Positions 28,314 to 64,000 of a stretch of DNA of 64,000 bases are shown piece after piece. Source of the DNA: Rubrivivax sp. Lineage in GTDB: Bacteria; Pseudomonadota; Gammaproteobacteria; Burkholderiales; Burkholderiaceae_C. Location of the stretch: positions 62,001-126,000 of the forward strand of contig JADYZZ010000059.1 in NCBI GenBank assembly GCA_020852865.1, in the 5' to 3' direction. How positions within the stretch are numbered: position 1 is the first letter of the stretch; the number at the start of each line of letters is the position of its first letter. Both the position numbers and the translations under genes were made by a program. The notes beneath the pieces were generated by a model. The model did not search any database and had not been told where the DNA came from. It saw nothing but the letters and a program-made list of their open reading frames with translations.

Positions 28314-29690
28314 GTGTCCACGCGCGCTGCGGTCGGGCAAGGCGAGTGGGCGACGGCGGGCCGGCTGCGCCCGGCGCCCGAGTGCTTCCTCGACGGCGAC
28401 GGCGTGCTCCGCGTGCGGCAGGAAGCGCGCGCCGGCCGGCGCGACTTCATCCGCCGCGCCTTCGCCGCCGCGCTGGCCGGCGGCGGTGCGGTCCGCGCCG
28501 CAGCGTCGGCGGGCGACCCCGAGATCCTCGAGCCGCAGCCGCAGCGCCAGGCGCTCGGCCGCCCGGTTGCAAGCACCGGCTACGGCAGCCCGAGCCGCTA
28601 CGAGGCGAACGTGCAGCGCCGCATCAGCCCGGGCCTCACCGCCACGCGCGAGTCGGGCGTGAGCTTCACGCCGCTGCAGAGCCTGTTCGGCATCGTCACG
28701 CCCAGCGGCCTGCACTTCGAGCGCCATCATGCCGGCTGGTGGGATCTCGACCCGCGCCGCCACCGGCTCATGATCAACGGCTCGGATCCTTCGCTCGTCG
28801 CGCGGCCGATGGTCTACACGATGGACGAGCTGATGCGGCTGCCGAGCACGAGCCGCTTCCGCTTCATCGAGTGCAGCGCCAACACCGGCATGGAATGGGG
28901 CAACGTCGCGGTGCCCACCGTGCAGTACACGCACGGCATGCTCAGCTGCAGCGAGTTCACCGGCGTGCCGCTGCGCCTGCTGCTCGAGCGCGCCGGCACC
29001 GACTGGCGGCGCGGACGCTTCGTGCTGGCCGAAGGCGGCGAGGGCTCGGCGCTGGCACGCACGATCCCGATGGCGCTGGTGGAGTCCGGCGAGGTGCTCG
29101 TCGCCTACGGCCAGAACGGCGAGATGCTGCGCCCCGAGAACGGCTACCCGCTGCGTCTGGTGGTGCCCGGCGTGCAGGGCGTGAGCTGGGTGAAGTACCT
29201 GCGCCGCATCGAAGTCGGCGACCAGCCCTACGCGACCCGCGACGAGGCGCTGCAGTACATCGACCTGATGCCCGATGGCCGCTACCGCCAGTACACCAGC
29301 GTGCAGGAATGCAAGAGCGTGCTCACCACGCCCTCGGGCGGGCAGGTGCTGCTGGGCGAGGGCTACTACGAGCTGAGCGGCCTGGCCTGGAGCGGACGCG
29401 GACGGATCCGGCGCGTCGACGTGAGCGTCGACGGCGGGCGCAACTGGCGCGCCGCGCGCCTGCAGCCGCCCGTGCTCGCCAAGTGCCTGACGCGCTTCAC
29501 GCTGCCCTGGATCTGGGACGGCCGGCCGGCGCTGCTGGCCAGCCGTGCGGTCGACGAGACCGGCAGCGTGCAGCCCGGCTACCGCGAACTGCGCGCGGTG
29601 CGCGGCACGCGCTCGCTCTACCACAACAACGCGGTGCAGGCCTGGCTGGTGCAGGCCGGCGGCGAGGTGGTCAATGTCCAGCTGCCGTGA
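28314..29690 (+). CDS. soxC: SoxC, molybdopterin sulfane/sulfite dehydrogenase subunit
   Basis: Tat-like N-terminus; FRFIECSANTGMEWGN, GMLSCSEFTGVPL, Mo-co dimerisation domain; GTG start. Confidence 0.93.
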   Translation: MSTRAAVGQGEWATAGRLRPAPECFLDGDGVLRVRQEARAGRRDFIRRAFAAALAGGGAVRAAASAGDPEILEPQPQRQALGRPVASTGYGSPSRYEANVQRRISPGLTATRESGVSFTPLQSLFGIVTPSGLHFERHHAGWWDLDPRRHRLMINGSDPSLVARPMVYTMDELMRLPSTSRFRFIECSANTGMEWGNVAVPTVQYTHGMLSCSEFTGVPLRLLLERAGTDWRRGRFVLAEGGEGSALARTIPMALVESGEVLVAYGQNGEMLRPENGYPLRLVVPGVQGVSWVKYLRRIEVGDQPYATRDEALQYIDLMPDGRYRQYTSVQECKSVLTTPSGGQVLLGEGYYELSGLAWSGRGRIRRVDVSVDGGRNWRAARLQPPVLAKCLTRFTLPWIWDGRPALLASRAVDETGSVQPGYRELRAVRGTRSLYHNNAVQAWLVQAGGEVVNVQLP

Positions 29691-30435
29691 CGCGCTGCTG
29701 GCCTGGGCCCTGCTCGGTGCCGCGGCCGCCGCCGCGGGCGGCGAACCCTATCCCGGCATCGGCCGCAGCGCCACCGCCAGCGAGCTCGCCGCCTGGGACC
29801 GCGACGTGCGCCCCGACTTCAAGGGCCTGCCCGCGGGCCGCGGCTCGGTGGCCGAAGGTCAGGTGCTGTGGGAGGCGCGCTGCGCCGCCTGTCACGGCGT
29901 GTTCGGCGAGAGCAACGAATGGACGCAGCCGCTGAGCGGCGGCACCGATGCCGAGGACATCCGGCGCGGCCGCGCGGCGCGGCTGGCCGACCCGGCCTAT
30001 CCGCAGCGCAGCTCGCTGATGAAGCTGGCAACCCTGTCCACGCTGTGGGACGCGATCGCGCGCTCGATGCCCTGGGACGCCCCGGGCACGCTGTCGGCCG
30101 ACGAAACCTACGCCGTGACGGCCTATCTGCTGCACCTGGAGGGCATCGTCGACGCGGCCTTCGTGCTCGACCGCGCGAGCGCCGCCGCCGTTCAGCAGCG
30201 CCTGCCCAACCGCCACGGCATGCAGTTCGAACACGCGCTGTGGCCGGGCGGATTGCCCGGCAGCACGCGCCGGCCCGACACCCGCGGCGACACCTGCCGG
30301 CGCGGCTGCCCGCCGCCGCAGCGCGTGGTCGGGTTCCCGCCCGGCCATGCGCGCGACGCGCACGGCGAGCTCGCCGAGCAGAACCGCCTGGTCGGCGCCC
30401 AGCGCGGCGCGCCGACTTCGGGCGCGGCGCGCTGA
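29674..30435 (+). CDS. soxD: SoxD, c-type cytochrome subunit
   Basis: CAACHGVFGESNEW heme site, follows soxC; a single CxxCH seen. Confidence 0.88.
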   Translation: MSSCRDALLAWALLGAAAAAAGGEPYPGIGRSATASELAAWDRDVRPDFKGLPAGRGSVAEGQVLWEARCAACHGVFGESNEWTQPLSGGTDAEDIRRGRAARLADPAYPQRSSLMKLATLSTLWDAIARSMPWDAPGTLSADETYAVTAYLLHLEGIVDAAFVLDRASAAAVQQRLPNRHGMQFEHALWPGGLPGSTRRPDTRGDTCRRGCPPPQRVVGFPPGHARDAHGELAEQNRLVGAQRGAPTSGAAR

Positions 30436-30545
30436 GCGCCGTCCTCCCGACGGATAGCCCGACCGGGTAGTCCCGGGCATGCCCTGATGCCCGCCCGGGC
30501 AGCGCACTGCGAAGATCGCCGCCTCTGCACAAGGAGCCGTCTGCG

Positions 30546-31004
30546 ATGAGCACCCGACGTGACATGCTGGCCACCAGCCTGAAGGTGGCCGGCCTGCTGG
30601 CCGCCGCCGGCATGCTGCCGCGGGCGGCGCAGGCAGCCTGGAACAGCGCCGCCTTCGACGCCAAGAACCTGGCCGACGCCGTCAAGGCCTTCGGCGGCAG
30701 TGCGCCGGCGGCCAGCACGGGCGTCAGCATCACCGGGCCCGACATCGCCGAGAACGGCGCGGTCGTACCGGTGGGTTGCGCGAGCACGCTGCCTGCCGTC
30801 AAGCGCCTGATGCTGCTGGTGGAGAAGAACCCCAACGCGCTGGCCGCGGTGTTCGACCTGACCGACAGCGTCGAGCCCAGCATCAACGCGCGCGTGAAGA
30901 TGGCCCAGTCGTCCAACGTGTACGCGGTGGCGATGACGGGCGACGGCAAGGTCTTCTACGCGCAAAAGGAGATCAAGGTCACGCTCGGCGGCTGCGGCGG
31001 CTGA
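30546..31004 (+). CDS. soxY: SoxY thiosulfate carrier
   Basis: Tat signal (STRRDMLATSLKVAGLLAAAG) and C-terminal VTLGGCGG swinging arm. Confidence 0.96.
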   Translation: MSTRRDMLATSLKVAGLLAAAGMLPRAAQAAWNSAAFDAKNLADAVKAFGGSAPAASTGVSITGPDIAENGAVVPVGCASTLPAVKRLMLLVEKNPNALAAVFDLTDSVEPSINARVKMAQSSNVYAVAMTGDGKVFYAQKEIKVTLGGCGG

Positions 31005-31019
31005 ACGAAGGAGAAGAAC

Positions 31020-31331
31020 ATGGCAGATCCGATGCGCATCCGCGCGCAGGTGCAAGGCGACAAGGCCGTCGTGCGCGTGCTGATGAGCCACGAGATGGAG
31101 ACCGGCCAGCGCAAGGACAGCGCAGGCAAGACGATCCCGGCCTGGTTCATCCAGGAGGTCGGCGTCAACCACAACGGCCGGGCGGTGCTCACGGCCCAAT
31201 GGGGCCCGTCGATCGCCAAGAACCCGTTCCTGCAGCTCACCGTGAAGGGGGCGAAGGCGGGCGACAAGATCACGGTCACCTGGAAGGACAACCGCGGCGA
31301 CAGCCGCACCGACGAGGCCACGGTGGCCTGA
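31020..31331 (+). CDS. soxZ: SoxZ
   Basis: MADPMRIRAQVQGDKAVVRVLMSHEMETGQRKDSAGKTIPAWFIQE. Confidence 0.96.
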   Translation: MADPMRIRAQVQGDKAVVRVLMSHEMETGQRKDSAGKTIPAWFIQEVGVNHNGRAVLTAQWGPSIAKNPFLQLTVKGAKAGDKITVTWKDNRGDSRTDEATVA

Positions 31332-31491: not shown

Positions 31492-31505
31492 GACGGGACG
31501 CGCCG

Positions 31506-32351
31506 ATGCACAAACCGATTCGCCCTGGCGCGCCCGGCGCGCGCCGGCTGCTCGCGGGCCTGATCGCAGGCCCGCTCGCCCTGGCCTCGGCGCTGCCGGC
31601 CTGGCCGCAGACGGCGAAATCGACCGCCGAAGGCATCGCCGAATACCGCAAGCTGCTCGAGGACGGCAACCCGGCCGACCTGTTCGAAGCCAAGGGCGAG
31701 CAGCTCTGGAAGACCCCGCGCGGGCCGAAGAACGCCTCGCTCGAGGCCTGCGACCTGGGCAAGGGGCCCGGCGTCGTGAAGGGCGCCTTCGTCGAGCTGC
31801 CGCGCTGGTTCGCCGACGCCGGCAAGGTGATGGACCTCGAAGCGCGCCTGATCTGGTGCATGGCGCAGCTGCAGGGGCTCGACGCGGCGGCGATCGACAA
31901 GACGCCGTTCGATCGCGGCGAGATGGCCAACGTCACCGCGCTCGCCACCTACGTGGGCAATGCCTCGCGCGGGATGCGCTTCAACCTGCCGCAGTCGCAC
32001 GCGCAGGAGCGCGTGATGTACGAGATCGGCAAGCGCGTGTTCTTCTACCGCGCGGGCACGCACGACTTCGCCTGCGCCACCTGCCACGGCGAGGAAGGCA
32101 AGCGCATCCGGCTGCAGGAGCTGCCCAACCTGACGCGTAATCCGGGCGACGGCGTCGGCTTCGCGGCCTGGCCGGCCTACCGCGTGAGCGCCGGGCAGAT
32201 GTGGAGCATGCAGTTCCGGCTCAACGACTGCTATCGCCAGCAGCGCTTCCCGTACCCGCTGTTCGCGTCGGACGCGACGATCGCCCTGGGCGTGTACATG
32301 GGCGTCAACGCCAAGGGCGCCGAATCGATCGTGCCCGCGATCAAGCGCTGA
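31506..32351 (+). CDS. soxA: SoxA cytochrome (one CxxCH seen)
   Basis: FACATCHGEEGKRIRLQELPN; NDCYRQQRFPYPLFASDATIALGVYM. Confidence 0.94.
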   Translation: MHKPIRPGAPGARRLLAGLIAGPLALASALPAWPQTAKSTAEGIAEYRKLLEDGNPADLFEAKGEQLWKTPRGPKNASLEACDLGKGPGVVKGAFVELPRWFADAGKVMDLEARLIWCMAQLQGLDAAAIDKTPFDRGEMANVTALATYVGNASRGMRFNLPQSHAQERVMYEIGKRVFFYRAGTHDFACATCHGEEGKRIRLQELPNLTRNPGDGVGFAAWPAYRVSAGQMWSMQFRLNDCYRQQRFPYPLFASDATIALGVYMGVNAKGAESIVPAIKR

Positions 32352-32377
32352 GCGCCTGTGAAGCCGAGGTCGCCCCG

Positions 32378-33013
32378 ATGAAGAAGCTGCCCGCCCTCTT
32401 CGCCGCAATGGCCCTGCTCGCCGGCTGCGCCTCGCTGCCGAGCGACGCCGAACTCGACCAGATGAGCGCGCGCATCATGCGCAGCTCGTTCCGCGACCAG
32501 GGCATCGCCAAGGTCGATCGCCTGGATCAGGACTTCGTCCAGGCCGCCTGCTCCGGCGGCAAGGCGCCCGACGAGGCCAGCGCCGCGCGCATCCGCGCCG
32601 AGGCCGCCGCCTCGGTGAAGAGGCCCGCCGACGGCCAATATCTCGGCGACTGGCGCGAAGGCGAGAAGCTTGCCCAGAGCGGCCGCGGCATGACCTGGAC
32701 CGACGCCTCCACCGCCCCGGCGGCCAACGGCGGCAACTGCTACAACTGCCACCAGATCGCGAAGGAGGAGATCTCCTACGGCACGATCGGCCCGAGCCTG
32801 TACCACTACGGCCGCGACCGCGGCATCACCGGCTCGAGCGAGCCGCAGATGCGGGCGCTGTACGAGTACACCTGGACCAAGCTGTACAACGCGCACGCCT
32901 TCGTCGCCTGCTCGAGCATGCCGCGCTTCGGCGCCAAGGGCCTGCTCGACGACAAGCAGCTCAAGCACCTGATGGCGCTGCTGCTCGACCCGAATTCGCC
33001 GGTCAACCGGTGA
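32378..33013 (+). CDS. soxX: SoxX cytochrome c
   Basis: Signal/lipobox-like LLAGCAS; GGNCYNCHQIAKEEISYGTIGPSLYHYG; MPRFG distal Met. Confidence 0.94.
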   Translation: MKKLPALFAAMALLAGCASLPSDAELDQMSARIMRSSFRDQGIAKVDRLDQDFVQAACSGGKAPDEASAARIRAEAAASVKRPADGQYLGDWREGEKLAQSGRGMTWTDASTAPAANGGNCYNCHQIAKEEISYGTIGPSLYHYGRDRGITGSSEPQMRALYEYTWTKLYNAHAFVACSSMPRFGAKGLLDDKQLKHLMALLLDPNSPVNR

Positions 33014-33077
33014 GCGGCGGCGGCGTACGCACGAGCGGGTTCCCGCCGGTGCAACGATCCCGCCGCCCGAGCCCGCC

Positions 33078-34823
33078 GTGAGCATCAGCCGGCGCGAATT
33101 CCTGCAGGTGCTGGCCGCCGCCGGCGCCGCCGGCATGGCGCTGGGCCGCTGGGCCGAGGCCGACGCGGCCAGCGCCGAGGACGCGCTGTACGAGCTGCCC
33201 GCGCCGGGCCGCGGCGCGGGCTTCGTCAGCCTGCTGCACCTGACCGACTGCCACGCCCAGCTGCTGCCGCTGCACTTCCGCGAGCCGAGCGTCAACCTCG
33301 GCGTCGGTCCGATGGCCGGACGGCTGCCGCATCGGGTGGGCGAGCGTTTCCTGGCCGCCACCGGCGTAGCGCCGGGCAGCGCGCTGGCGCATGCGTACAC
33401 GTATCTCGACTTCGAGCGCGCCGCGCGCCGCTACGGCAAGGTGGGCGGCTTCGCGCATCTGGCGACGCTGGTCAAGCGGCTCAGGGCCGGCCGGCCGGGC
33501 GCCTTGCTGCTCGACGGCGGCGACACCTGGCAGGGTTCGGCCACGGCGCTGTGGACGCGGGCGCAGGACATGGTCGACGCCTCGAAGCTGCTCGGCGTCG
33601 ACGTCATGACCGGCCACTGGGAGTTCACCTACGGCATGCAGCGCGTCCGGGAGATCGTCGAGCGCGATTTCAAGGGCCGCATCGACTTCGTCGCACACAA
33701 CGTCCGGACCACCGACTTCGGCGATCCGGTGTTCGCCCCCTACGTGCTGCGCGAGGTCAACGGCGTCAAGCTCGCCATCGTCGGCCAGGCCTTCCCGTAC
33801 ACGCCGATCGCCAACCCGCGCTACTTTGTCGCCGACTGGGAGTTCGGCATCCAGGAGGAGAACCTGCAGAAGGTGGTCGACGAGGCGCGCGGCAAGGGCG
33901 CGGCCCTGGTCGTGCTGCTCTCGCACAACGGCATGGATGTCGACCTCAAGCTCGCCGGCCGCGTGCGCGGCATCGACGCCATCCTCGGCGGCCACACGCA
34001 CGACGGCGTGCCGGTGGCGCTGCCCGTCGCGAATGCCGGCGGCACGACGCTCGTCACCAACTCGGGCAGCAACGGCAAGTTCCTCGGCGTGATGGACTTC
34101 GAGGTTCGCTCCGGCCGCGTCGCCAACTGGCGCTGGCGGCTGCTGCCGGTGTTTGCCGATGTGCTGGCGCCCGACCCCGAGATGGCCGCGCTCGTCACGC
34201 GGCTGCGCGCGCCGTTCGAAGCCAAGCTCGCCGAAAAGCTGGCGGTCACCGACGCGCTGCTGTACCGCCGCGGCAACTTCAACGGCAGCTGGGACCAGTT
34301 GGTGTGCGACGCGCTGCTCGAAGTGCAGGACGCCGAGATCGCCTTCAGCCCGGGCTTTCGCTGGGGCACGACGCTGCTGCCGGGCCAGACCATCACGCGC
34401 GAGCTGATGATGGACCAACTCGCCATCACCTACCCCTACGCCACCGTGGCGCCGATGACGGGCGAGTTCATCAAGACCGTGCTCGAGGACGTGGCCGACA
34501 ACCTCTTCAACCCGGACCCCTATTACCAGCAGGGCGGCGACATGGTGCGGGTGGGCGGCCTCGAGTACACGATCGAACCCGGCGCGAAGATGGGCGCGCG
34601 CATCAGCGACATGCGGCTTGCCGGCCGGCCGATCGAGTCCGGCAAGAGCTACAAGGTCGCCGGCTGGGCCCCGGTGGCCGAGGCCGCCGCGCAGGCCGGC
34701 AGCAAGCCGGTGTGGGAGCTGGTCGAGAGCTGGCTGAAGGCGCGCCCGGGCGGGCGCGTGGCGCCGCCGCGCCTCAACACGCCGCGGCTGGTGGGCGTGC
34801 AGGGCAACGCCGGGCTGGCCTGA
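33078..34823 (+). CDS. soxB: SoxB thiosulfohydrolase
   Basis: SISRREFLQVLAAAGAAGM; LLHLTDCHAQLLPLHFREPSVNLGVG; GHTHDGVP; 581 aa. Confidence 0.96.
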   Translation: MSISRREFLQVLAAAGAAGMALGRWAEADAASAEDALYELPAPGRGAGFVSLLHLTDCHAQLLPLHFREPSVNLGVGPMAGRLPHRVGERFLAATGVAPGSALAHAYTYLDFERAARRYGKVGGFAHLATLVKRLRAGRPGALLLDGGDTWQGSATALWTRAQDMVDASKLLGVDVMTGHWEFTYGMQRVREIVERDFKGRIDFVAHNVRTTDFGDPVFAPYVLREVNGVKLAIVGQAFPYTPIANPRYFVADWEFGIQEENLQKVVDEARGKGAALVVLLSHNGMDVDLKLAGRVRGIDAILGGHTHDGVPVALPVANAGGTTLVTNSGSNGKFLGVMDFEVRSGRVANWRWRLLPVFADVLAPDPEMAALVTRLRAPFEAKLAEKLAVTDALLYRRGNFNGSWDQLVCDALLEVQDAEIAFSPGFRWGTTLLPGQTITRELMMDQLAITYPYATVAPMTGEFIKTVLEDVADNLFNPDPYYQQGGDMVRVGGLEYTIEPGAKMGARISDMRLAGRPIESGKSYKVAGWAPVAEAAAQAGSKPVWELVESWLKARPGGRVAPPRLNTPRLVGVQGNAGLA

Positions 34824-35012: not shown

Positions 35013-36347
35013 TCAGAACCGCGCCGTGTACATCACCTGCACGTTCTGCTGCTTGTGCGTGATGAGCACGCCCTGGCCGTTGGTGACCGAGACGCGCGGC
35101 GCATAGGTGTACGACAGGTTCAGCTCGTGCGCCGGCGTGAAGGCCCAGCCCGCGCCCAGCGTGTAGTGGTTCTTCACGGTGGCCGGGAAGAGCGGGTTGA
35201 CGAAGGCGTCGGGAATCGGGTTGTCGGCGAGGTTGACGCCGGCGCGCAGCGTGAGCTGCTGGTTCGCCGACCACGCCAGGCCGAGGTTGGTGACCGTCTG
35301 GTCCTTCCAGTTCTGCGGCATCGCGAAGCTCACCGAACCGCCCATGCCGGCGCTGTCGTAGCGCATCTTGAAGCTCTGCATCACGCCGGCCCAGCCGATG
35401 CGCTTGACGTCGGCCGCCACCAGCAGCGCCGGGCTGGCCTGCCAGGCCACACCGAGCGCGGCCATCGTCGGCCACTGGAAATCGACCACCGTCATGCGGC
35501 CGCTGTCGGCAAAGCCTCCGGGTGCGCTCAGCGTCGCGCCGGCGGTGCCGGTCTTCAGATCGCCCAGCTTGGTCTTGAACTGGTACGAGCCGCCCAGCGT
35601 GACCCCGGGCGCGGCCCTCCAGACGAAGCCCAGCTTGGCAGCCCAGCCGGTGGCCTTGGCCGCACCCGAGAAGTCGTTGGAGTCCGAGAAGTCGATGCGG
35701 GCCCAGGGCGCACCGCCCAGGGCCGGCAGCGCACCGCCCAGGTTGCCCGAGGCCCCGGTGACCATGCCGCCGAGCTGCGCGCCGCTGGCGGCCATGCGCA
35801 GGTCGAGGTTGGCCCAGACGTAGTCGAGCGTGCCGCCGATGGCGAACTCGGGCGTCGCCTGCCAGGCCAGCGGCAGCAGCACGCGGCCGACGCCGAGCTC
35901 CGAGCGCACCGGCTGGCCCGAGCCCAGCGCCATGAAGCTGTTCTCGGAGTACTCGGTGCCCATGCCGCCTTGCGCGAAGATGCCGAAGCCCCAGGTGAGC
36001 GCGCCGCTCCTGCGCGCGTAGCCGAAGGCCGGCATCAGGTACGAGGTGCCGCCCGAGTCGGCCGTCGGCATGCCCGGCACCGAACTCGCCACCTTGGGCC
36101 CGAGCTGGCCGACCGCGACGTCCAGACGCGCCGGCGAACCCATCAGCGCGAGCGTCGCCGGATTCTGCGCCATCGCGGCGGTGCCATGGTCCACGGCCTG
36201 CGAAGCGCCTCCCATGCCGGTGCTCACCGGCCCGTAGCCTTCCATGTTCATGCCGTTGGTGGCGTGCGCGCCGCCGGCGGCCAGACACAGGACACAGGCG
36301 GCGGCAAGCGCCGAGCGGCGGGCACAGCGGATGTTTCTCGTCTTCAT
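35013..36347 (-). CDS. FadL/TodX-type outer membrane transport protein
   Basis: ATNGMNMEGYGPVSTGMGGASQAVDHGTAAMAQNPATLALMG; C-terminal VMYTARF beta-barrel end. Confidence 0.9.
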   Translation of the reverse strand: MKTRNIRCARRSALAAACVLCLAAGGAHATNGMNMEGYGPVSTGMGGASQAVDHGTAAMAQNPATLALMGSPARLDVAVGQLGPKVASSVPGMPTADSGGTSYLMPAFGYARRSGALTWGFGIFAQGGMGTEYSENSFMALGSGQPVRSELGVGRVLLPLAWQATPEFAIGGTLDYVWANLDLRMAASGAQLGGMVTGASGNLGGALPALGGAPWARIDFSDSNDFSGAAKATGWAAKLGFVWRAAPGVTLGGSYQFKTKLGDLKTGTAGATLSAPGGFADSGRMTVVDFQWPTMAALGVAWQASPALLVAADVKRIGWAGVMQSFKMRYDSAGMGGSVSFAMPQNWKDQTVTNLGLAWSANQQLTLRAGVNLADNPIPDAFVNPLFPATVKNHYTLGAGWAFTPAHELNLSYTYAPRVSVTNGQGVLITHKQQNVQVMYTARF

Positions 36348-36421: not shown

Positions 36422-37078
36422 TCACCAGCGCGCGAGCAGGCGCCCTTCGGCGATCTTGCTGGGCCAGCGCGTGAGCGCACGCTCGCCCTTGGCGGTGCAC
36501 GCCCCGCTCGTGACGTCGAACGCCCAGCCGTGCTTCGGGCAGGTGAGCGCGCGGCCCTGCAGCGCCTCGGGCGGAATATCGGTGCCCTGGTGCGGGCAGC
36601 GGCTGTCGTGGACGCGCCATGCGTCGCCGTCGGCCTCGCTCGCCGACGCGGCACGGTAGACGAACAGACCGCGGCCGTCGCACTCGACGCGTCGCGCCTC
36701 GCCGGCGGCCAGGGCGTCGGCGGCCATCACGTCGTGCCACCGCGGTGCGGCCGCCGCGGCGCGCAGCGCCTCGGGCCGGAACTCGGGCAGGTCGAGCGCC
36801 AGGATGACGTCCACCGCCCAGACGATCTTCGCCAGGCCCAGCGTCGGAAACGCCATCAGCAGAGCGTCGAGCACTTCCAGCGGTGTGCAGCCCGCGCCCA
36901 GCGCACGCCGCAGGTATTGCCGCAGGCCGCGCTCGGTTTGCGCGTCGACCTTGGTGATGACGCTGATGAGCGCGCGCGTCTTCGGGTCGAGGTGCTTGCC
37001 GCAGTCCTGGCGAAAGGCGAAGTAGTGGCCGAGCGCGTCGCCGCGCACCGCCCCCAGGTAGTCGAGCGCCTTGCTCAC
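36422..37078 (-). CDS. AhpD/carboxymuconolactone decarboxylase-like domain fused to Rieske [2Fe-2S] domain
   Basis: VSKALDYLGAVRGDALGHYFAFRQDCGKHLDPKTRALISVITKV... then CPHQGTDIPPEALQGRALTCPKHGWAFD; GTG start at 37078 preferred over the upstream 37177 start, which would overlap the next gene. Confidence 0.75.
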   Translation of the reverse strand: MSKALDYLGAVRGDALGHYFAFRQDCGKHLDPKTRALISVITKVDAQTERGLRQYLRRALGAGCTPLEVLDALLMAFPTLGLAKIVWAVDVILALDLPEFRPEALRAAAAAPRWHDVMAADALAAGEARRVECDGRGLFVYRAASASEADGDAWRVHDSRCPHQGTDIPPEALQGRALTCPKHGWAFDVTSGACTAKGERALTRWPSKIAEGRLLARW

Positions 37079-53724: not shown

Positions 53725-55755
53725 TCAGTGCGCCGGCGCGGTCTTGAACAGCTTGCTCTTGTCGACGAGATCGACGTGGCGACGCTTGAAGCAGGTCCAC
53801 TGCCTGGTCGACTTGTCGTAGACCGAGTTGACGAAGCAGTGCCAGTTCTTCTCGTCGACGAAGTTCTTGTCGGTGCGGTAATAGAAGCCCGGGTAGCGCG
53901 ACTCCTCGCGGAACTGGATGTGCTTCATGTGCGCCTCGGCGGTGAGGATGCGGTGGTAGTTCTCCCAGGCGCGCAGCAGCTCGTGCAGATCCTTCGCGCG
54001 CATCTTGGCCGCGTCCTCCTTGAGCATCTCGAGCTTCTCCTCGGCCACCTTGAGCATCACGTCGTTGGTGTTGTAGTAGGTGGCGACGCCCGCGACGTAC
54101 TCGTCCATGATCTTCTGCAGCCGGAACTGCGCCATCTTGGGCGTGATGTAGTGCGGGTTGATGTCGATCGCGGTGGTGTAGTCCTTGTGCTGCAAGAAGG
54201 TGCGCACCGGCTTGTAGATCTCCTCGGCCAGCGTCGCCGCGTCGGTGTCGAGCTCGGGCTGGTGAGCGGCGTTGTCGAGCGCGAAGCGCACCATCGCCTT
54301 GGCCGCCAGGCGCCCTTCGGCGTGCGAGCCGCTGCTGAATTTGTGGCCCGAGGCGCCGACGCCGTCGCCGGCGGTGAACAGGCCCTTGACGGTGGTCATC
54401 GAGCGGTAGCCCCAGTTCCAGCCGCGCGGCAGGTGCGCCGGGACACCGTCGAGCTCGCCTTCGTCGGCGGTGGGCGCGCCGAGGTCGGTCGGGCCCGAGA
54501 CCCAGATGCCGCAGCAGCCCGAGTGCGAGCCCAGCAGGTAGGGCTCGGTGGGCATGAGCTCGCTCATCTTCTTCTCGGGCTCGATGTTCTCGCCGACCCA
54601 GATGCCGCACTGGCCGATGCACATGTCGAGGAAGTCCTCCCAGGCCTCGGCCTCGAGGTGCTTGACCTCCTTGGGACTCAGCGTCTCGCGCAGCTTGCCC
54701 AGCGCGGTGACGGTGTCCATGTAGATCGGCCCGCGCCCTTCCTTCATCTCCTTCAACATCAGGTGGTTGCGCAGGCACGAGGCCGGCACCGCCGCCTGGC
54801 CGTAGGGCGGGTACTGGTCGAGCAGTTCCTTGTTCTTGACCATGTAGTCCTCGCCGTAGGCGTTGACGGCCTTGGCCTTGAACAGCAGGAACCACGCGCC
54901 CACCGGGCCGTAGCCGTCCTTGAAGCGCGCCGGCACGAAGCGGTTCTCCATCATCGTGAGCTCGGCGCCGGCCTCGGCCGCCATCGCGTAGGTGCTGCCG
55001 GCGTTCCACACCGGATACCAGGCGCGGCCCGTGCCCTCGCCCACCGAGCGCGGACGGAACAGGTTCACGCAGCCGCCGGCGGCCAGCAGCACGGCCTTGG
55101 CCTTGTAGACGTAGATCCTGTTCTCGCGCACCGAGAAGCCCACCGCACCGGCAATGCGCGAGGGGTCGTTCTTGTCGTTGACGAGCTTGACGATGAACAC
55201 GCGCTCCTGGATGCGGTCCAGCCCCAGCGCCTTCTTGGCCGCCTCGGCGACGATCCACTTGTACGACTCGCCGTTGATCATGATCTGCCACTTGCCCGAG
55301 CGCACCGGCTTGCCGCCGTCCTTGAGCGCGGGCAGGCCTTCCTTCTGGCTCTCGGCGCCGTCGTGGCGCACGCCGTCGTCGTCGGTCTTCCAGATCGGCA
55401 GGCCCCATTCCTCGAACAGGTGCACCGACTCGTCGACGTGGCGCCCGAGGTCGTAGGCGAGGTCGTCGCGCGTGATGCCCATCAGGTCGTTGCTGACCAT
55501 GCGCGCGTAGTCGGCCGGATCCTGCTCGGGGCCGATGTAGGTGTTGATCGCCGACAGGCCCTGCGCGACCGCGCCGCTGCGGTCCATCGCCGCCTTGTCG
55601 ACGAGCTTGATCCTCAGCTCCTTGCCGGTCTCGGCCTTCACGGCCTCGGCCCAGCGCATCATCTCGAAAGCGGCGCCGCAGCAGGCCATGCCGCCGCCGA
55701 TCAGCAGGATGTCCAGCTCTTCCTGGACGACTTCGGGGTTCTCGAACGTTGCCAT
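53725..55755 (-). CDS. aprA: Adenylylsulfate (APS) reductase alpha subunit
   Basis: ILLIGGGMACCGAAFEMMRWAE; DKAAMDRSGAVAQGLSAINTYIG; SHSGCCGIWVSGPTDLGAP; 677 aa. Confidence 0.97.
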   Translation of the reverse strand: MATFENPEVVQEELDILLIGGGMACCGAAFEMMRWAEAVKAETGKELRIKLVDKAAMDRSGAVAQGLSAINTYIGPEQDPADYARMVSNDLMGITRDDLAYDLGRHVDESVHLFEEWGLPIWKTDDDGVRHDGAESQKEGLPALKDGGKPVRSGKWQIMINGESYKWIVAEAAKKALGLDRIQERVFIVKLVNDKNDPSRIAGAVGFSVRENRIYVYKAKAVLLAAGGCVNLFRPRSVGEGTGRAWYPVWNAGSTYAMAAEAGAELTMMENRFVPARFKDGYGPVGAWFLLFKAKAVNAYGEDYMVKNKELLDQYPPYGQAAVPASCLRNHLMLKEMKEGRGPIYMDTVTALGKLRETLSPKEVKHLEAEAWEDFLDMCIGQCGIWVGENIEPEKKMSELMPTEPYLLGSHSGCCGIWVSGPTDLGAPTADEGELDGVPAHLPRGWNWGYRSMTTVKGLFTAGDGVGASGHKFSSGSHAEGRLAAKAMVRFALDNAAHQPELDTDAATLAEEIYKPVRTFLQHKDYTTAIDINPHYITPKMAQFRLQKIMDEYVAGVATYYNTNDVMLKVAEEKLEMLKEDAAKMRAKDLHELLRAWENYHRILTAEAHMKHIQFREESRYPGFYYRTDKNFVDEKNWHCFVNSVYDKSTRQWTCFKRRHVDLVDKSKLFKTAPAH

Positions 55756-55876: not shown

Positions 55877-56347
55877 TCATTTCACGCGCAGCAGTTCGCC
55901 ATCGCGCCCGGCGCGGTAGCCGCCGCTGGGCGTGAAGTAGCCGGGCTTGTCGATGTCGGCCAGCTTGGGCATCGTCTTGCCGGCGTAGGGCTGGATCGAG
56001 CCCTCCTCGGTGGTGCGCGTCGGGAACTTGAAGCGCTTCAAGGTGCCGTTGCGGAACTTGATCGTCCACATGATCGAGTCGGAGCCGCGCAGCGGCTGCA
56101 CCGAGCCGCCCAGCGGCACGATGTCGGCGTAGTGCCGCACCTCGATCGCGTTCTGCGGGCAGATCTTGACGCAGGAGTAGCACTCCCAGCATTGCTCGGG
56201 CTCCTGGTTGAAGGCGCGCATCGGGTGCCCGGTCTGCGAGCCGTCCTTGTCGAGCATCATCAGGTCGTGCGGGCAGATGTACATGCAGGCCGTCTTGTCC
56301 TGGCCCTTGCAGCCGTCGCACTTGTCGGTCCGTACGTAGGTGGGCAT
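55877..56347 (-). CDS. aprB: APS reductase beta subunit
   Basis: MPTYVRTDKCDGCKGQDKTACMYICPHDLMMLD; CWECYSCVKICPQNAIEVRHYADIVPLGGSVQPLRGSDSIMWTIKFRNG. Confidence 0.97.
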   Translation of the reverse strand: MPTYVRTDKCDGCKGQDKTACMYICPHDLMMLDKDGSQTGHPMRAFNQEPEQCWECYSCVKICPQNAIEVRHYADIVPLGGSVQPLRGSDSIMWTIKFRNGTLKRFKFPTRTTEEGSIQPYAGKTMPKLADIDKPGYFTPSGGYRAGRDGELLRVK

Positions 56348-56404: not shown

Positions 56405-57580
56405 CTAGCGGCCGGCGTCGGCGTAGTAGGCACGCAGGATCTGCAGCACCTCGGGGCGGCTGAACTCGGCGGGCACGTCGTGGCCTTCGCCGAGCCACTT
56501 GCGCAGCTGGGTGCCGCTCACCTGCAAGCGGTCGGCGTCGCCGTGCGGACAGGTGCGCGCCGAGGCCATGCCGCCGCAGCGGTAGCACCAGAACGAGACG
56601 TCGATCCTGAGCGGCCGCGTCTGCAGTGCATCGGCCGGGATCTCGTCGAAGATGCGGTGCGCGTCGAACGGGCCGTAGTAGCTGCCGACGCCGGCATGGT
56701 CACGCCCGACGACGAGGTGCGAGCAGCCGTAGTTCTGGCGAAAGAGCGCGTGCAGCAGCGCCTCGCGCGGGCCGGCGTAGCGCATGTCGAGCGGGTAACC
56801 GGCCTGCACTATGGTGGAAGGCACGAAGTAATGCTCGGCCAGCGCGGCGATGGCGCGCGTGCGCACCTCGGCCGGGATGTCGCCCGGCTTGACCGCGCCC
56901 AGCAGCGAGTGCACGAGCAGGCCGTCGCAGACCTCGATCGCGATCTTGGCCAGGTACTCGTGCGAGCGGTGCATCGGGTTGCGCGTCTGGAACGCGGCCA
57001 CGCGCGACCAGCCGCGCTCCTGGAAGAGCGCGCGCGTCTGCGCCGGCGTCATGTACAGCGCGCCGTACTTCTCGGGAAAGCCGCCCTGCGACAGCACCTT
57101 CAGCGGCCCGGCCAGGTTGACCTCGCCTTGCTCCATCACCATCTTGACGCCCGGGTGCGCGAGGTCGGTGGTGCGGAACACCGCGGCGCACTCGTGCGCC
57201 TTGTCGATCGTGTACTTCTCGGTCACGCGCATCGTCGCCAGCGGCGCACCGTCCTCACCGTCGAGCAGCGCGATCTCCTGGCCGGTGCGGATCGCGGCCG
57301 CTTCGGCCGCGCCGGCCGACAGGGTGATCGGGATCGGCCAGAACAGGCCGCTGGCCAGCCGCATGCCGTCGCACACGCCGCGCCAGTCGGTGCTCGTCAT
57401 GAAGCCGTCCAGCGGCGTGAAGCCGCCGATGCCGAGCATCACGATATCGCCGCGCTCGCGCGAACTCACGCGCAGGCCGGGCAGCGCGGCGGCGCGGCGG
57501 CGCTCCTCGTCCAGCGCCTGCCCTTGGAGCAGCAGCGGGCGCAGGCGCTCGCTTCCGTGCGGGTCGACGAGACCGGTCAT
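56405..57580 (-). CDS. sat: ATP sulfurylase (dissimilatory type)
   Basis: [52 protein letters not shown]. Confidence 0.96.
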
Positions 57581-57795: not shown

Positions 57796-58779
57796 ATGTC
57801 CGAAAAATCCGATCAGGCGAAAGGCCCGCCGCAGGCCCTGCCGCTGGCCCCGCGGCTGCGCCTGAGCCTGCGCCAGCTCGAGGTCTTCGTCGCCACCGCG
57901 CGCGCCGGCTCGACGCGCGCCGCCGCCGACCGCGTGGCGCGTTCGCAGTCCGCTGCCAGCGCCGCGCTGGCCGAGCTCGAGAGCGCGCTGGGCGCGCAGC
58001 TGTTCGACCGCCTCGGGCGCCGCCTGCGGCTCAACGACAACGGCCGCGCGCTGCTGCCCAAGGCGGCGGCGCTGCTCGACCGCGCCGTCGAGCTCGAGCA
58101 TCTGCTGTCGCCGGCGCGGCCGGCGCCGCTGCACCTGGCGGCCAGCCTGACGATCGGCGAGTACCTGCTGCCGGGGCTGCTGGCGCGCTGGAAGCTCGTC
58201 TGCCCGGCGCAGCCGGTGCAGCTGATGATCGGCAACACGCGCGAGGTGGTCGAGGCGGTGGCGGGCTTCGACGCCGACGTCGGCTTCATCGAGGGCACGC
58301 AGACGCATCCGCGCCTCGTCGTGCGCCCCTGGCTGACCGACGAACTCGTGGTGTTCGCCGCCGCCGATCACCCGCTGGTCGGCCGCCCGCTGAGCCTGCG
58401 CGAGCTGCGCGCGGCCACCTGGGCGCTGCGCGAGCACGGCTCGGGCACGCGCGAGGCCGCCGAACTGTGGCTGCACGAGCGGGTCGGCGCACTCGACGTC
58501 GCCTTCGAGCTCAGCAGCCCCGAGGCGATCAAGCGCCTGGTGGCCGCCGGCGCCGCGCTCGGCTGTCTGCCGCGCGAGGTCGTGGCGCAGGAGCTGGCGC
58601 AGGGCACGCTGGCCGAGCTGCAGACCAGCCTGCCGCGGGCGATCCGGCGGCTATCGATGGTGTTGCACCGCGACAAGCACATCGGCCGCGACACCGCCGA
58701 GTTCATCCGCCATTGCAGCGAGCTGCGCGGCGCAGCGCGCGGCGAGGTGCCGCCGCGGCGCCGCAGCGCGAGCGGGTGA
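57796..58779 (+). CDS. LysR family transcriptional regulator
   Basis: LRLSLRQLEVFVATARAGSTRAAADRVARSQSAASAALAELESALGAQLFDRLGRRLRLNDNG. Confidence 0.92.
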   Translation: MSEKSDQAKGPPQALPLAPRLRLSLRQLEVFVATARAGSTRAAADRVARSQSAASAALAELESALGAQLFDRLGRRLRLNDNGRALLPKAAALLDRAVELEHLLSPARPAPLHLAASLTIGEYLLPGLLARWKLVCPAQPVQLMIGNTREVVEAVAGFDADVGFIEGTQTHPRLVVRPWLTDELVVFAAADHPLVGRPLSLRELRAATWALREHGSGTREAAELWLHERVGALDVAFELSSPEAIKRLVAAGAALGCLPREVVAQELAQGTLAELQTSLPRAIRRLSMVLHRDKHIGRDTAEFIRHCSELRGAARGEVPPRRRSASG

Positions 58780-58956: not shown

Positions 58957-60165
58957 ATGCCCGCCATCGAGATGCCTTTCCGGACCCCGAGCGCCACGCC
59001 GGCAATGCCGGCCGGTGCGGCGCCGTCGGGGCTGCTGGCCGAGATCACCGCCGGCCTGGCTTCGGGCAACGACCTGCACGAGCTGCTGGCGCGCTTCCTG
59101 CACCCGCTGCTGAACCTCGCCAGCGCCGCCGCCGGCGCCGTGCGCGTGCTCGACGACAGCGGCCAGCGCATGCACCTGGTGGCAAGTCAGGGCCTGCCTG
59201 CTGCCGTGCTCGAGGCCGAACGCGCGGTCGATGGCGACTGCGGCGCCTGCGGCTTCGCGCTGCAGGCGCGCCAGCCGGCCTGGGGCCATGACGTGAGCGC
59301 CTGCGCACGGCGCAGCGAAGGCGCCTATTTCGGCAGCGCCTGCCGACGCATCCTGGCCGTGCCGCTGGCCCACCGCGGGCGCCTGCTCGGGATCTACAAC
59401 CTGTTCTACGAAGACGCGTCCGAACCCTCGCCGCAGGTGCTGGCGCTGCTCGAATCGGTGGGGGCACTGCTCGGGCTGGCGCTCGAGAACGCGCGGCTCG
59501 AGCGCGAGAACCTGCGCGCCGCGCTGGCCGGCGAGCGCCAGGCGATCGCCGCCGACGTGCACGACTCGATCGGCCAGTCGCTGGCCTACGTCAAGATGCG
59601 CCTGCCGCTGCTGCAAGACGCCATCCGCGGCTGCGACCAGGCGTCGGCCGAGGGCTATTTCGACGACGTGCGCGAGGCGGTGCGCGAAGCGCACGCCAAC
59701 CTGCGCGCGCTGCTCACGCACATGCGCGCGCCGATGCACCCGCGCGGACTGGCGCACGCGCTGGCGGCCAGCGCCGAGGCCTTCCGCGCGCGCGGCGGCC
59801 CGCGCCTCGAGTTCGCCAACACGCTGCCCGAGGCCGCGCTCACGCCGCCGCAGGAGGAGCAGGTCTACCGCATCGTGCAGGAGGCGCTCGCCAACGTCGT
59901 GCGTCACGCCGGCGCGCGCCGCGCCTGGCTGCACGTCGAGCGCGAGGGCGACCTGCTCGAAGTGCGCATCGACGACGACGGCGCCGGCATCGCCGCGGCG
60001 GCCGAGGACGGCGGCACGCACTACGGGCTGGCGATCATGCGCGAGCGCGCACACCGGCTCGGCGGCACGCTCGAGGTCGGCCCGCGCCCGGGCCGCGGCA
60101 CGCGCGTGTGCCTGCGCGTGCCGCTGCCGGCGGCAACGGCCGCGCCGGCCGGGGCCCTGGCATGA
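58957..60165 (+). CDS. Soluble GAF-domain NarX-like sensor histidine kinase
   Basis: GAF region with CGACGF; AADVHDSIGQSLAYVKMRL (HisKA_3); DDDGAGI...HYGLAIMRERAHRLGGTLEV. Confidence 0.88.
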   Translation: MPAIEMPFRTPSATPAMPAGAAPSGLLAEITAGLASGNDLHELLARFLHPLLNLASAAAGAVRVLDDSGQRMHLVASQGLPAAVLEAERAVDGDCGACGFALQARQPAWGHDVSACARRSEGAYFGSACRRILAVPLAHRGRLLGIYNLFYEDASEPSPQVLALLESVGALLGLALENARLERENLRAALAGERQAIAADVHDSIGQSLAYVKMRLPLLQDAIRGCDQASAEGYFDDVREAVREAHANLRALLTHMRAPMHPRGLAHALAASAEAFRARGGPRLEFANTLPEAALTPPQEEQVYRIVQEALANVVRHAGARRAWLHVEREGDLLEVRIDDDGAGIAAAAEDGGTHYGLAIMRERAHRLGGTLEVGPRPGRGTRVCLRVPLPAATAAPAGALA

Positions 60166-60297: not shown

Positions 60298-60954
60298 ATG
60301 AGTGCGCCGCGCCTCGTCCTCGTCGACGACCACTCGCTGTGCCGTACCGGGCTGTCCGACCTGCTGCGCCAGCGTGGCGGCATGGAGGTGCTGGCTGCGC
60401 TTGCCGACCCCGACCAGGTCGTCGCCGTGCTGCGCGAGCAGCGCCCGGATCTGCTGGTGCTCGACCTGCGCATGCCCGCCGTCGACGGGCTGACGCTGCT
60501 GCAGCGCATCCGCGCCGAGGGCCTGGACACGCCGGTCGTGATCCTGACGATGAGCGACTCCGAGACCGACCTCGCCGCCGCGCTGCGCGCCGGCGTGCGC
60601 GGCTACCTGCTCAAGGACATGGAGCCCGAGGACGTGATCACCGCGATCGGCAACGCCGCGCGCGGCGAGCTGGTCGTGGCGCCGGCGATGACGCTCAAGC
60701 TCGCCCAGCTGCTGCAAGACGGCAGCAAGGGCCGCAACCGCGGCGACCTCCTGGCCTCGCTCACCGAACGCGAGCGCCAGATCCTCGACCACCTGGCGCG
60801 CGGCGAGAGCAACAAGACGATCGCGCGTGCGCTCGAAATCAGCCACGACACCGTCAAGCTGCACGTGCGCCATATCCTCGCCAAGCTCAACCTGAGCTCG
60901 CGCGTCGAGGCCGCGGTGTTCGCGGTCGAAGCGCGGGTGGCCGGGCCGCGCTGA
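60298..60954 (+). CDS. NarL-like response regulator
   Basis: RLVLVDDHSLCRTGLSDLL; LVLDLRMPAVDG; LTERERQILDHLARGESNKTIARALEISHDTVKLHVRHILAKL. Confidence 0.93.
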   Translation: MSAPRLVLVDDHSLCRTGLSDLLRQRGGMEVLAALADPDQVVAVLREQRPDLLVLDLRMPAVDGLTLLQRIRAEGLDTPVVILTMSDSETDLAAALRAGVRGYLLKDMEPEDVITAIGNAARGELVVAPAMTLKLAQLLQDGSKGRNRGDLLASLTERERQILDHLARGESNKTIARALEISHDTVKLHVRHILAKLNLSSRVEAAVFAVEARVAGPR

Positions 60955-61128: not shown

Positions 61129-61956
61129 CTACAGGACCGGGGCGGGCCGGCGGCGCCCCACGGGCGCCCCGGCGCCGAACCACGCCAGTTCCTCGCGCAG
61201 CCGGACCACCTCGCCGACGATGGTGAGGCAGGGCGAGGCGAGCCCGGCTTCGGCCACGCGCGCCGCCAACGTGCCCAGCGTGCCGGCAACCACGCGCTGC
61301 CCGGCCAGCGTGCCGTTGCCCACCACCGCGGCCGGCCAGTCGGCGCCCAGGCCATGGGCGGCGAGTTGGGTGCAGATCGTCTCCAGGCCCGACAGGCCCA
61401 TGTAGATCACCACCGTCTGGCCCGGGCGGGCCAGCGCCTGCCAGTCGAGGTTGCAGCTGCCGTCCTTCAGATGCCCGGTGACGACGACGCAGCTGTGCGC
61501 GCAGTCGCGGTGCGTGAGCGGGATGCCGGCGTAGGCCGACACGCCGCAGGCCGCCGTGATCCCCGGAACCACCTCGAACGGCACGCCGGCGGCGGCCAGC
61601 GCCTGCAGCTCCTCGCCGCCGCGACCGAAGACGAACGGATCGCCGCCCTTGAGCCGCACCACCGAGCGGCCCGCGCGCGCCAGATCCACCAGCATCGCGT
61701 TGATGCGCTCCTGCGGCACGCTGTGACGCGCGCGCTCCTTGCCGACGTAGATGCGCTCGGCGCGGGCGCCCACGAGCGCGAGCACGCCGTCGCCGACGAG
61801 GTGGTCGTAGACGACGACGTCGGCACGCTCGAGCAGCCGTGCCGCGCGCAGCGTGAGCAGCTCGGGGTCTCCGGGTCCGGCGCCGACGAGGTACACGGCG
61901 CCGCCGTCGGCACCCCAGGCGCGCACCATCGCGGCCACATCGACGAACGAGTTCAT
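61129..61956 (-). CDS. cobA: Uroporphyrinogen-III C-methyltransferase (SUMT)
   Basis: [64 protein letters not shown]. Confidence 0.95.
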
Positions 61957-61973
61957 GCGGCTCTCCTCGAAGC

Positions 61974-62375
61974 TCAGGCGTCGCCGGCGCCGCTGACGCC
62001 GCGCGACCGCGAGATCGCCGAGGCGCTGGGCCCGGTGCTGGCCGCGCGCGGCCCGGGTTCGGTGTCCGGCGCGGATGCGGCGCCCTCGTGCTCGGCGCCG
62101 GATAGGAAGACGAAGTCGAAGCGCCCGCCCTCGATCTCGACGTAATCGAGCACGGTGTCGGCGAGGATCGGCCGGCTCGGTGCGGCGAGCAGCACGGTCA
62201 GGTCTTCGCAGCGCACGGTCTCGTCGTTCTCGCGCTCGGCGTCGAAGCCCATGCCGAACGCGACGCTGCCGTCGGGCCGCCGGCGTGCGGCGACGCGCAG
62301 CGCCAGGCCTTCGGCATCGCTGCGGCGGGCGGCCGAGCGCAGTTCGGCGACGGCGGCCGGGGTGATGCGGAACAT
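61974..62375 (-). CDS. dsrR: A-type Fe-S carrier (IscA)-like protein lacking CGC, DsrR-like
   Basis: [33 protein letters not shown]...[51 protein letters not shown]. Confidence 0.65.
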
Positions 62376-62398
62376 CGGGTGCGACTCCTGCGGGCCGT

Positions 62399-62755
62399 TC
62401 AGTGCTCGCCCTTGGTGCGCAGCAGACCGGCCAGCCGGTTGCCCTGCTTCTGCGGCCCGCCCATCGGGAACAGCAGGTGCAGCGCGTGGTTGCTGGCGCG
62501 CTCGGCGCCCCACAGCGGGGTGAAGTGGCGGATCATCACGCGCACCTGGGGCTGCACGCCATGCTCGTGCCAGAAGCGGCGCAGGAAGTCGATCACCTCC
62601 CAGTGCGCCGGCGTGAGCTCGAGCCCCTCCTCGCGCGCCAGCGCGGTGGCGAAGGCTTCCGACCAGTCCTGCAGATCGACCAGGTAGCCCTCGCGGTCGG
62701 TCGGCACGGCGCGCCCTTCGACCATGACGGTGCGCAGGGGCGAAGACGGTGGCAT
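62399..62755 (-). CDS. DsrC/TusE family protein lacking C-terminal cysteines
   Basis: [58 protein letters not shown]...[24 protein letters not shown]. Confidence 0.85.
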
Positions 62756-62773
62756 GGCGTGGCTCCTCCTCGG

Positions 62774-64000
62774 TCAGGCGGCGAGCATGGCGGGCCCTGC
62801 GCGCTCGGCGCGGGCACGCCGCACGAAATCGACGAAACGCGGCACCCAGGCCGCTCCGGCGCCACTGCGCAGGTGCGCATACGACGCGAGCAGCCGGTGC
62901 AGCACCAACCCGTCGTGGCGGCCGTCGATGCCGTGCCCGCGCTGCATCCGATAGGCGTAGCGCAGTCCGGGATCGAGGTTCTCGAGGCTCGAGTGGTGGA
63001 ACTCGTGCCCCTGCACGACGCCCGCGCCGCCGCCCGCCCAGGGCATGTCCTCGGTCTCCTGCAGCCGCACGTAGCCGCGGGCGACGCTGCGCTCGTGCAT
63101 CACCGCGTCGGCCGGGATCACACCGACCATCGGCGCGCTGCGGCCCTGCCAGCGGATGCTGCGCGCCAGGTACATCAGACCGCCGCATTCGGCATAGGTG
63201 GGCAAGCCGCCTTCGATCGCGGCCCGCAGCGCGCCGCGCAGCGGCGCATTGGCGGCGAGCGCGTCGAGGCAGGCCTCGGGAAATCCGCCGCCGATGACCA
63301 GGCCATCGAGCGCCGGCAGCCCTGCGTCGCGCAGCGTGTCGACGAAGACGAGTTCGGCGCCGGCCGCCTCGAGCGCGGCCAGATCGCCAGGGTAGTAGAA
63401 GCCGAAGGCGCGGTCGCGCGCGACGCCGATGCGCAGCGCGCGCCGGCCGGCCGCGGCCGCTGCGCCGGCGCCATCGGCGACGGCCGGCGGCGCAGCGAGC
63501 GGCGGCGCGGCCGCAGCGATCGCGCGCACACGCGCCAGATCGACCTGCGCGGCGACGTCGCGGCCGATCGCCCGCACGCGCTCGCTCGCCGCCGCGACTT
63601 CGCTGCAGGGCACGAGCCCGAGGTGGCGTTCGGCGATCGCCAGGCGCGCATCCTCGGCCAGCGCGCCCAGCACCGGCACCGTGGTGTGGCGCTCGATGGC
63701 GGCGCGCAGCTTGGACTCGTGGCGTGCGCCGCGCACGCGGTTGAGCACGACGCCGGCGATGCGCACCTCGGGGTCGAACGCCTGCTGGCCGAGCAGCAGC
63801 GGCGCGATGCCGCGCGTCATGCCGCGCGCATCGAGCACCAGCAGCACCGGCGCGGCCAGCAGCCGCGCCAGCGCGGCGTTGCTGTCGCTGCCGTCGGGCG
63901 CCAGCCCGTCGTGCAGGCCCATGTTGCCTTCGACGAGCGCGAGCTCAGCCGCCCCGGCGTGCCGCGCGAACGCGGCGCACAACGCCTCGGGGCGTTCCAG
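62774..64000 (-). CDS. dsrN: Cobyrinate a,c-diamide synthase-like glutamine amidotransferase (DsrN-like), 5' end outside window
   Basis: VLVLDARGMTRGIAPLL; RIAGVVLNRV; GLVIGGGFPEACLDALAAN; LPTYAECGGLMYL; open frame continues to the window edge. Confidence 0.82.
   Translation of the reverse strand: MERPEALCAAFARHAGAAELALVEGNMGLHDGLAPDGSDSNAALARLLAAPVLLVLDARGMTRGIAPLLLGQQAFDPEVRIAGVVLNRVRGARHESKLRAAIERHTTVPVLGALAEDARLAIAERHLGLVPCSEVAAASERVRAIGRDVAAQVDLARVRAIAAAAPPLAAPPAVADGAGAAAAAGRRALRIGVARDRAFGFYYPGDLAALEAAGAELVFVDTLRDAGLPALDGLVIGGGFPEACLDALAANAPLRGALRAAIEGGLPTYAECGGLMYLARSIRWQGRSAPMVGVIPADAVMHERSVARGYVRLQETEDMPWAGGGAGVVQGHEFHHSSLENLDPGLRYAYRMQRGHGIDGRHDGLVLHRLLASYAHLRSGAGAAWVPRFVDFVRRARAERAGPAMLAA

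Follow-up and report, generated by a model that had tools for sequence, protein, structure and literature searches.

We analysed a 64,000-nucleotide stretch of a Rubrivivax sp. draft genome (4.19 Mb in 102 contigs; completeness 95.7%, contamination 2.6%), here called the window, which spans positions 62001-126000 of contig JADYZZ010000059.1 (C59). From position 28,314 onward it carries a sulfur-oxidation island in which soxCD lie inside a sox operon on the same contig as an rDsr operon, two gene sets that have been described as mutually exclusive. All named sulfur genes of the island are intact open reading frames, and G+C content is uniform across the window. This bears out the inventory of an earlier note on this DNA, which had listed soxCDYZAXB, soeCBA, qmoAB-hdrCB, aprA/aprB/sat, a rhodanese, a TauE exporter, cobA and DsrR-like and DsrN-like genes. 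SoxC, SoxY, SoxZ, SoxA, SoxX, SoxB, AprA, AprB and Sat score above curated equivalog cut-offs, and the names of SoeABC, Qmo/Hdr, TauE, CobA, DsrN, DsrC-like, DsrR and RspA come from context and from matches to families or domains. The host genus is the GTDB genus that includes Rubrivivax albus, and genomes of relatives are given as G-numbers.

The sox operon and its short SoxD

The operon runs on the plus strand as soxCDYZAXB. The first gene, soxC (28314..29690; TIGR04555, 572.8 bits, cut-off 420), encodes a full-length sulfane dehydrogenase molybdoprotein, and alignment to 2XTS_A shows that the molybdenum-ligand cysteine is retained (FIECSANTGMEW). It is followed by soxD (29674..30435), soxY with a GGCGG arm (30564..31004; TIGR04488), soxZ (31032..31331; TIGR04490), soxA (31506..32351; TIGR04484), soxX (32378..33013; TIGR04485) and soxB (33078..34823; TIGR04486, 844.8 bits, cut-off 550); the soxXYZAB set is complete and intact. 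The soxCD pair reported in the earlier note is there and intact, with the correction that SoxD has one haem motif (CAACH) instead of the two found in most relatives. The protein has 253 residues, and its match and alignment to 2XTS_B (2.6e-24), the crystallised Paracoccus SoxD chain of 205 residues, cover the haem-1 domain. The haem-2 domain is missing, and the soxD match is followed after only about 140 bp by soxY, too short a gap for a second domain. We rejected the idea that soxCD is a pseudogene, as there is no stop or frameshift and both frames are full and coding-like. An N-terminal 'MCSW' shared by short SoxDs was judged to result from the overlap with the soxC frame and was not used. 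Compared with the complete (Kelly-Friedrich) Sox systems of Burkholderiales, the window has the same gene order and the same seven core proteins, but its SoxD lacks haem-2 and its operon sits within an rDsr/Soe/Apr island.

The rDsr operon

The earlier note had proposed looking for dsrAB, dsrEFH and dsrMKJOP on the flanking contig, and the full operon was found there. Running on from the window edge, the flank (C59:124,001-143,900) holds an unbroken dsrN-P-O-J-L-K-M-C-H-F-E-B-A, that is, a full dsrABEFHCMKLJOPN. The dsrA gene (C59:135,394-136,698) lies 9.4 kb past the window and 44 kb from soxC; DsrA scores 495.8 bits against a cut-off of 392.85 and DsrB 515.9 against 341.5. The oxidation markers dsrEFH and dsrL are present, and the gene calls in the island, the part of the genome searched for it, include no dsrD. 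A TusA-DsrE2-YeeE set follows beyond the operon at C59:143-145 kb.

The right end of the window carries, on the minus strand, a cobA-type uroporphyrinogen/tetrapyrrole (siroheme) methyltransferase (61129..61956; PF00590), a dsrR-like gene (61974..62375) without a family match, named from its position, which is conserved towards the 3' end of dsr operons, an RspA-like DsrC paralogue (62399..62725; PF04358) and dsrN (62774..64000, extending to window-equivalent 64186), after which dsrP to dsrA follow in the flank. A divergent DsrC-family protein (50003..50374, minus strand; PF04358) is encoded further left. Both DsrC-family genes counted in the earlier note therefore exist, but neither product has the C-terminal redox cysteines that mark DsrC proper. 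The canonical form, which keeps both and ends ACKIAGLPKPTGCV, is encoded outside the window at C59:132891-133223. The two cysteine-less proteins are conserved beside apr/hdr and dsr and are likely to be regulatory or structural relatives of DsrC.

Co-occurrence of soxCD and dsr

Loy 2009 (PMC2702494) reported that dsrAB occurs where soxCD is missing, apart from possible weak exceptions, and Watanabe 2019 (PMC6397845), who found none of 82 strains with both, termed soxCD and dsr mutually exclusive. Co-occurrence is not new as such, since exceptions are already tabulated: a 2023 table (PMC9959259) reports DsrAB for 8 of the 300 species that have complete Sox, and the passages considered here from a 2026 paper (PMC13386937) give two Leptothrix/Sphaerotilus groups with soxCD in most members and oxidative-type dsrAB in about half. 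These groups resemble the window in soxCD, oxidative-type dsrAB, fccAB and RuBisCO; those passages count genes per group and do not discuss within-genome co-occurrence, linkage or SoxD form. Thiobacillus, Sulfuritalea and Thiobacter, with the Sox-Dsr-Soe core pathway (PMC6397845; PMC11596669), share soxXYZAB, the rDsr operon and soeABC with the window, as well as aprBA-sat and qmoAB-hdrBC, but they lack soxCD, which the window has in its sox operon.

The exclusion rule fails in the host genus. Among its 81 genomes, DsrA is found in 32, SoxC in 56 and both in 21 (Fisher p=0.63), one of the 21 (G291) having an unlinked SoxC paralogue only. The family sample (n=201) has 19 genomes with DsrA, 106 with SoxC above cut-off and 11 with both (p=0.81). 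Across the class sample (n=369) co-occurrence is modest, with 117 genomes carrying DsrA, 51 SoxC and 11 both, against 16 expected (p=0.11). SoxC exceeds its cut-off in 15 of 50 named DsrA-bearing genomes, at least two of which (G034, G014) show the paralogue only. Where soxC and dsrA share a contig, they are separated by about 5 kb (G289), 10-11 kb (G217, G101), 15 kb (Rubrivivax albus), 16 kb (G296), 21 kb (G172, one contig), 40 kb (G250) and 44 kb (window, G314). Related isolates with both are Rubrivivax albus ICH-3, Ideonella aquatica 4Y11, Piscinibacter defluvii SH-1 and Hydrogenophaga aromaticivorans D2P1. The SoxD of Rubrivivax albus ICH-3 is of the two-haem form. A soxCD deletion strain of Cupriavidus JMP134 is available (PMC9959259).

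SoxC is equally conserved with and without Dsr: the median of SoxC minus SoxB identity is +0.022 in Dsr-positive genomes with a two-haem SoxD and +0.027 in Dsr-negative genomes (p=0.24), which argues for retained SoxC function. An association between soxCD loss and Dsr in genomes with SoxB (p=0.03 raw) weakens to p=0.06 once G308, G264, G313 and G285 are removed, where SoxC is 'absent' at contig ends and was treated as unresolved, and it is gone in independent pairs on the tree; we do not claim it.

An unlinked soxCD-like pair with a very short SoxD occurs in G291, G258, G142, G078, G306, G290, G034 and G014. Its SoxC is 43-52% identical to that of the window and above the SoxC equivalog cut-off, so counts of 'SoxC' by profile overstate sulfane dehydrogenase. 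The short SoxDs of G291, G258, G142, G078, G306, G034 and G014 belong to this paralogue and were not counted as operon short SoxDs.

The soxCD locus in relatives

To the left of soxC lie a folE-like GTP cyclohydrolase I gene (27120..27863, plus strand; PF01227), a conserved neighbour of the sox operon also in SoxCD-less relatives, and a BLUF (blue-light, FAD) protein gene (27860..28300, plus strand; PF04940). G145, G265, G266, G268 and G267 have folE, BLUF and soxYZAXB at this locus, BLUF directly adjoining soxY, where the window has folE, BLUF, soxC, soxD and soxYZAXB. No convincing soxCD remnant was seen at the locus in SoxCD-less relatives. The position of the BLUF gene immediately upstream of the sox operon, here and in several relatives, makes light control of thiosulfate oxidation possible.

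An operon SoxD of the short form is found in the window, G271, G289 and G314, all Dsr-positive, that is, in 4 of 19 Dsr-positive and 0 of 26 Dsr-negative genomes of the genus (p=0.026, uncorrected for kinship and noticed post hoc). The SoxCs of these four genomes group together (98/88 with SoxC alone, 98/90 with SoxC and SoxD joined) and all carry M247L, a substitution at a site that does not vary among the remaining SoxCs. In the SoxB tree the same genomes are spread over four positions, all of them adjacent or close to genomes without SoxC; the nearest neighbours of the window are G145 and G273, without soxCD, and G308, which ends at a contig edge. A fifth candidate, G004, was dropped, as its haem-2 domain lies in another frame. 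This Dsr-positive Ramlibacter metagenome-assembled genome has a soxD frameshift before the haem-2 domain, either real or an assembly error.

Sulfite-oxidation modules and other island genes

The block of tauE and soeCBA is on the minus strand, and soeA is therefore transcribed first. It consists of a TauE/SafE sulfite exporter (38410..39378; PF01925), the membrane anchor soeC (39378..40367; DmsC, PF04976), the iron-sulfur subunit soeB (40387..41121; PF13247, NrfC/DsrO-type family) and the molybdopterin subunit soeA (41118..44036; PF00384, PF04879, PF01568). The nearest solved relative of SoeA is the polysulfide/thiosulfate reductase 2VPW, and no curated SoeA model is among the NCBIfam matches for the window protein. 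Its N-terminus, MAHVPLHDPLADPDAQ, has no twin arginine and no obvious Tat (twin-arginine translocation) signal. We predict that SoeABC is a cytoplasmic three-subunit complex of molybdo, Fe-S and DmsC-type subunits that oxidises sulfite.

On the plus strand follow a qmoA/hdrA-like flavoprotein gene (44834..46129; HdrA2 profile, 2.9e-99), a qmoB/hdrA-like flavoprotein gene whose product has a C-terminal MvhD domain by profile and domain matches (46122..48374), hdrC (48388..49017; TIGR03290, 1.3e-23; QmoC N-terminal part, 2.4e-15) and hdrB (49074..49976; TIGR03288, 6.5e-49), the latter two likewise named as similar genes. The minus strand carries aprA (53725..55755; TIGR02061, 910.5 bits, cut-off 641.75), aprB (55877..56347; TIGR02060, 191.6 bits, cut-off 135.65) and the ATP sulfurylase gene sat (56405..57580; TIGR00339, 388.6 bits, cut-off 322.95), with sat transcribed first. 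Profile and context make QmoAB and HdrCB the partner of AprBA, and no AprM-like gene was seen in the window, which is thus of the qmoAB-hdrCB-linked rather than the aprM-linked type. G145 has the same arrangement at this island position: its aprBA goes with qmoAB-hdrCB, and an aprM-like gene is lacking. The AprA encoded there in G250, G289 and G266 is 42-43% identical to that of the window, and in G250 and G289 a gene for an AprM-like membrane protein precedes aprBA. It seems that the island keeps a constant framework in which the modules for sulfite oxidation and SoxCD can be swapped.

Between the sox and soe genes, on the minus strand, are a FadL/OMPP1-type outer-membrane channel (35013..36347; PF03349), conserved in the island and its synteny, a carboxymuconolactone decarboxylase-Rieske fusion (36422..37078; PF02627 and PF00355) and a universal-stress-protein-like protein (37146..37985; weak NCBIfam UspE/F/G matches, synteny). 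The fusion is kept in the sulfur islands of several genera. The rhodanese (50588..50977, plus strand), named by profile match, is 82-88% identical to those of relatives. Divergent from sat lies a YeiE-family LysR regulator gene (57796..58779, plus strand; NF008095 above cut-off, NF040889 YeiE below cut-off). YeiE is a sulfite-responsive regulator, which makes sulfite control of apr-sat plausible. Next come a NarQ/NarX-type sensor kinase (58957..60165, plus strand; profile match) and a LuxR-type response regulator (60298..60954, plus strand), which form a NarQ/NarL-type pair. Elsewhere in the genome, FccAB is encoded at C59:33.7 kb and RuBisCO cbbLS on a different contig, and a search of the genome for photosynthetic reaction-centre genes found none; RuBisCO together with the lack of a reaction centre fits chemolithoautotrophy.

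Synteny of the island

A tblastn comparison of the 50 island proteins with stretches from relatives recovered the modules of the island, almost unchanged in order, in independent assemblies. G250, of another genus, has dsrA to cobA, the sensor pair, yeiE, sat, an aprM-like gene with aprBA, rhodanese, soeABC, tauE, FadL and soxBXAZYDC. The module order recurs in G172, a single-contig 4.94 Mb genome of another genus, and the sox and dsr order in Rubrivivax albus ICH-3; in G314, of the same genus, sox including soxCD lies as far from dsrA as in the window. The dsr, apr, hdr, soe and sox genes are mostly 80-97% identical to those of one close relative, and G145 is 92% identical to the window in dsrA, 97% in aprA and 86% in soxB. 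Judged by these comparisons, the arrangement is real, recurrent in the genus and no assembly error.

Discussion

We suggest that this is probably a two-compartment sulfur-oxidation island, periplasmic in Sox and cytoplasmic in rDsr and Soe/Apr, of a chemolithoautotrophic or mixotrophic member of the Burkholderiales. In the periplasm the complete Sox system would oxidise thiosulfate, with SoxCD able to oxidise the SoxYZ-bound sulfane sulfur and SoxB then releasing sulfate. In the cytoplasm rDsr would oxidise sulfane sulfur derived from sulfide (through FccAB) or from stored sulfur, as well as any on SoxYZ that SoxCD leaves; import could run over a YeeE-type carrier, TusA, DsrE2 and DsrEFH-DsrC, and this route would compete with SoxCD for the SoxYZ-bound sulfane. 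For the resulting sulfite there are two candidate oxidation routes, SoeABC and AprBA-Sat, of which the second would hand its electrons to QmoAB-HdrCB and generate ATP. The sequences show which genes are there, that they are intact and linked, that the arrangement recurs in relatives and that SoxC is under constraint across the genus; from this we infer the expression of both branches, their division of labour, the electron routes and the regulation.

The proposal of the earlier note that the organism maintains redundant branches next to one another is supported by dsrAB on the contig, by the intact genes and by the recurrence of the arrangement in relatives. 'Redundant' is read from gene content, and each branch may be used for its own substrates or oxygen levels. 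Nor is equal activity of both implied, because the window SoxCD is atypical.

Three observations weigh against the two-compartment proposal. The window SoxC deviates at 9 of 161 positions that are otherwise invariant in relatives (median 0), the absence of the SoxD haem-2 domain may mean reduced or altered function, and in G145, the closest well-resolved relative, soxCD is cleanly missing from the same locus. However, 8 of the 9 positions are likewise not conserved in the Paracoccus enzyme (2XTS), and the haem-2 domain is dispensable for SoxD catalytic activity according to the title of Bardischewsky 2005 (ref. 38 in PMC9959259). As the molybdenum ligand is also kept, the window SoxCD is likely to be active. 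What is new in this analysis is the SoxD without haem-2, the divergent SoxC and the clean absence of soxCD at the G145 locus.

As to origin, a divergent soxCD with a short SoxD could have been transferred between BLUF and soxY into Dsr-positive genomes that had lost their own soxCD. We regard such a regain, which is compatible with two-compartment function, as possible though somewhat doubtful. The four grouped SoxCs with their common M247L, from genomes scattered over the SoxB tree near SoxC-less ones, speak for it, but the window SoxC is the longest branch (0.53 against a median of 0.11; 0.87 joined with SoxD) and of odd composition, and long branches attract. Approximately unbiased (AU) tests do not reject vertical placement (p-AU 0.505 for the window; p 0.307 for G271 with G298), and no donor was found.

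The same long branch and odd composition, the SoxB-tree neighbours without soxCD and the unrejected grouping with vertical neighbours would also suit a decaying SoxCD, in which selection was relaxed by rDsr, haem-2 was lost, SoxC drifted and sister lineages lost the pair, leaving Sox(-CD)-rDsr-Soe/Apr as the working pathway. We consider this unlikely. Both frames are full and coding-like, the molybdenum ligand is kept, the changed positions are mostly free in Paracoccus, haem-2 is reported dispensable in the title cited above, and across the genus SoxC is constrained equally with and without Dsr. It seems rather less probable still that haem-2 loss is a recurrent adaptation, arisen or spread several times and only in Dsr-positive genomes, that permits SoxCD and rDsr to coexist. 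Such a loss might, for example, slow or re-route electrons from SoxCD so that SoxYZ-bound sulfur is split between periplasmic SoxCD and cytoplasmic rDsr.

We think it very improbable that the main substrate of the short SoxCD is a different one, such as free sulfite or a SoxYZ-like carrier, and that the enzyme is no longer a sulfane dehydrogenase. SoxC does belong to the sulfite oxidase superfamily, with a weak SorA/SorT match, and several relatives have the unlinked paralogue with its short SoxD; but soxCD remains part of the sox operon, and the score of SoxC is far above the SoxC equivalog cut-off and far below those of SorA/SorT. Although the genome is a 102-contig draft, a chimeric contig joining two organisms is excluded for practical purposes by the same module order in independent assemblies of relatives, in keeping with the uniform G+C and the identity to one close relative across the modules, and no inactivation of genes was seen.

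The finding bears on predictions from metagenomes, which build on the exclusion of soxCD and dsr ('no SoxCD means sulfur globules and rDsr'). In the host genus both routes are present in about two thirds of Dsr-positive genomes. Close relatives differ by just soxCD at one locus and related isolates carry both, so that single gene removals could directly test what becomes of SoxYZ-bound sulfur and why the two routes supposedly exclude each other.

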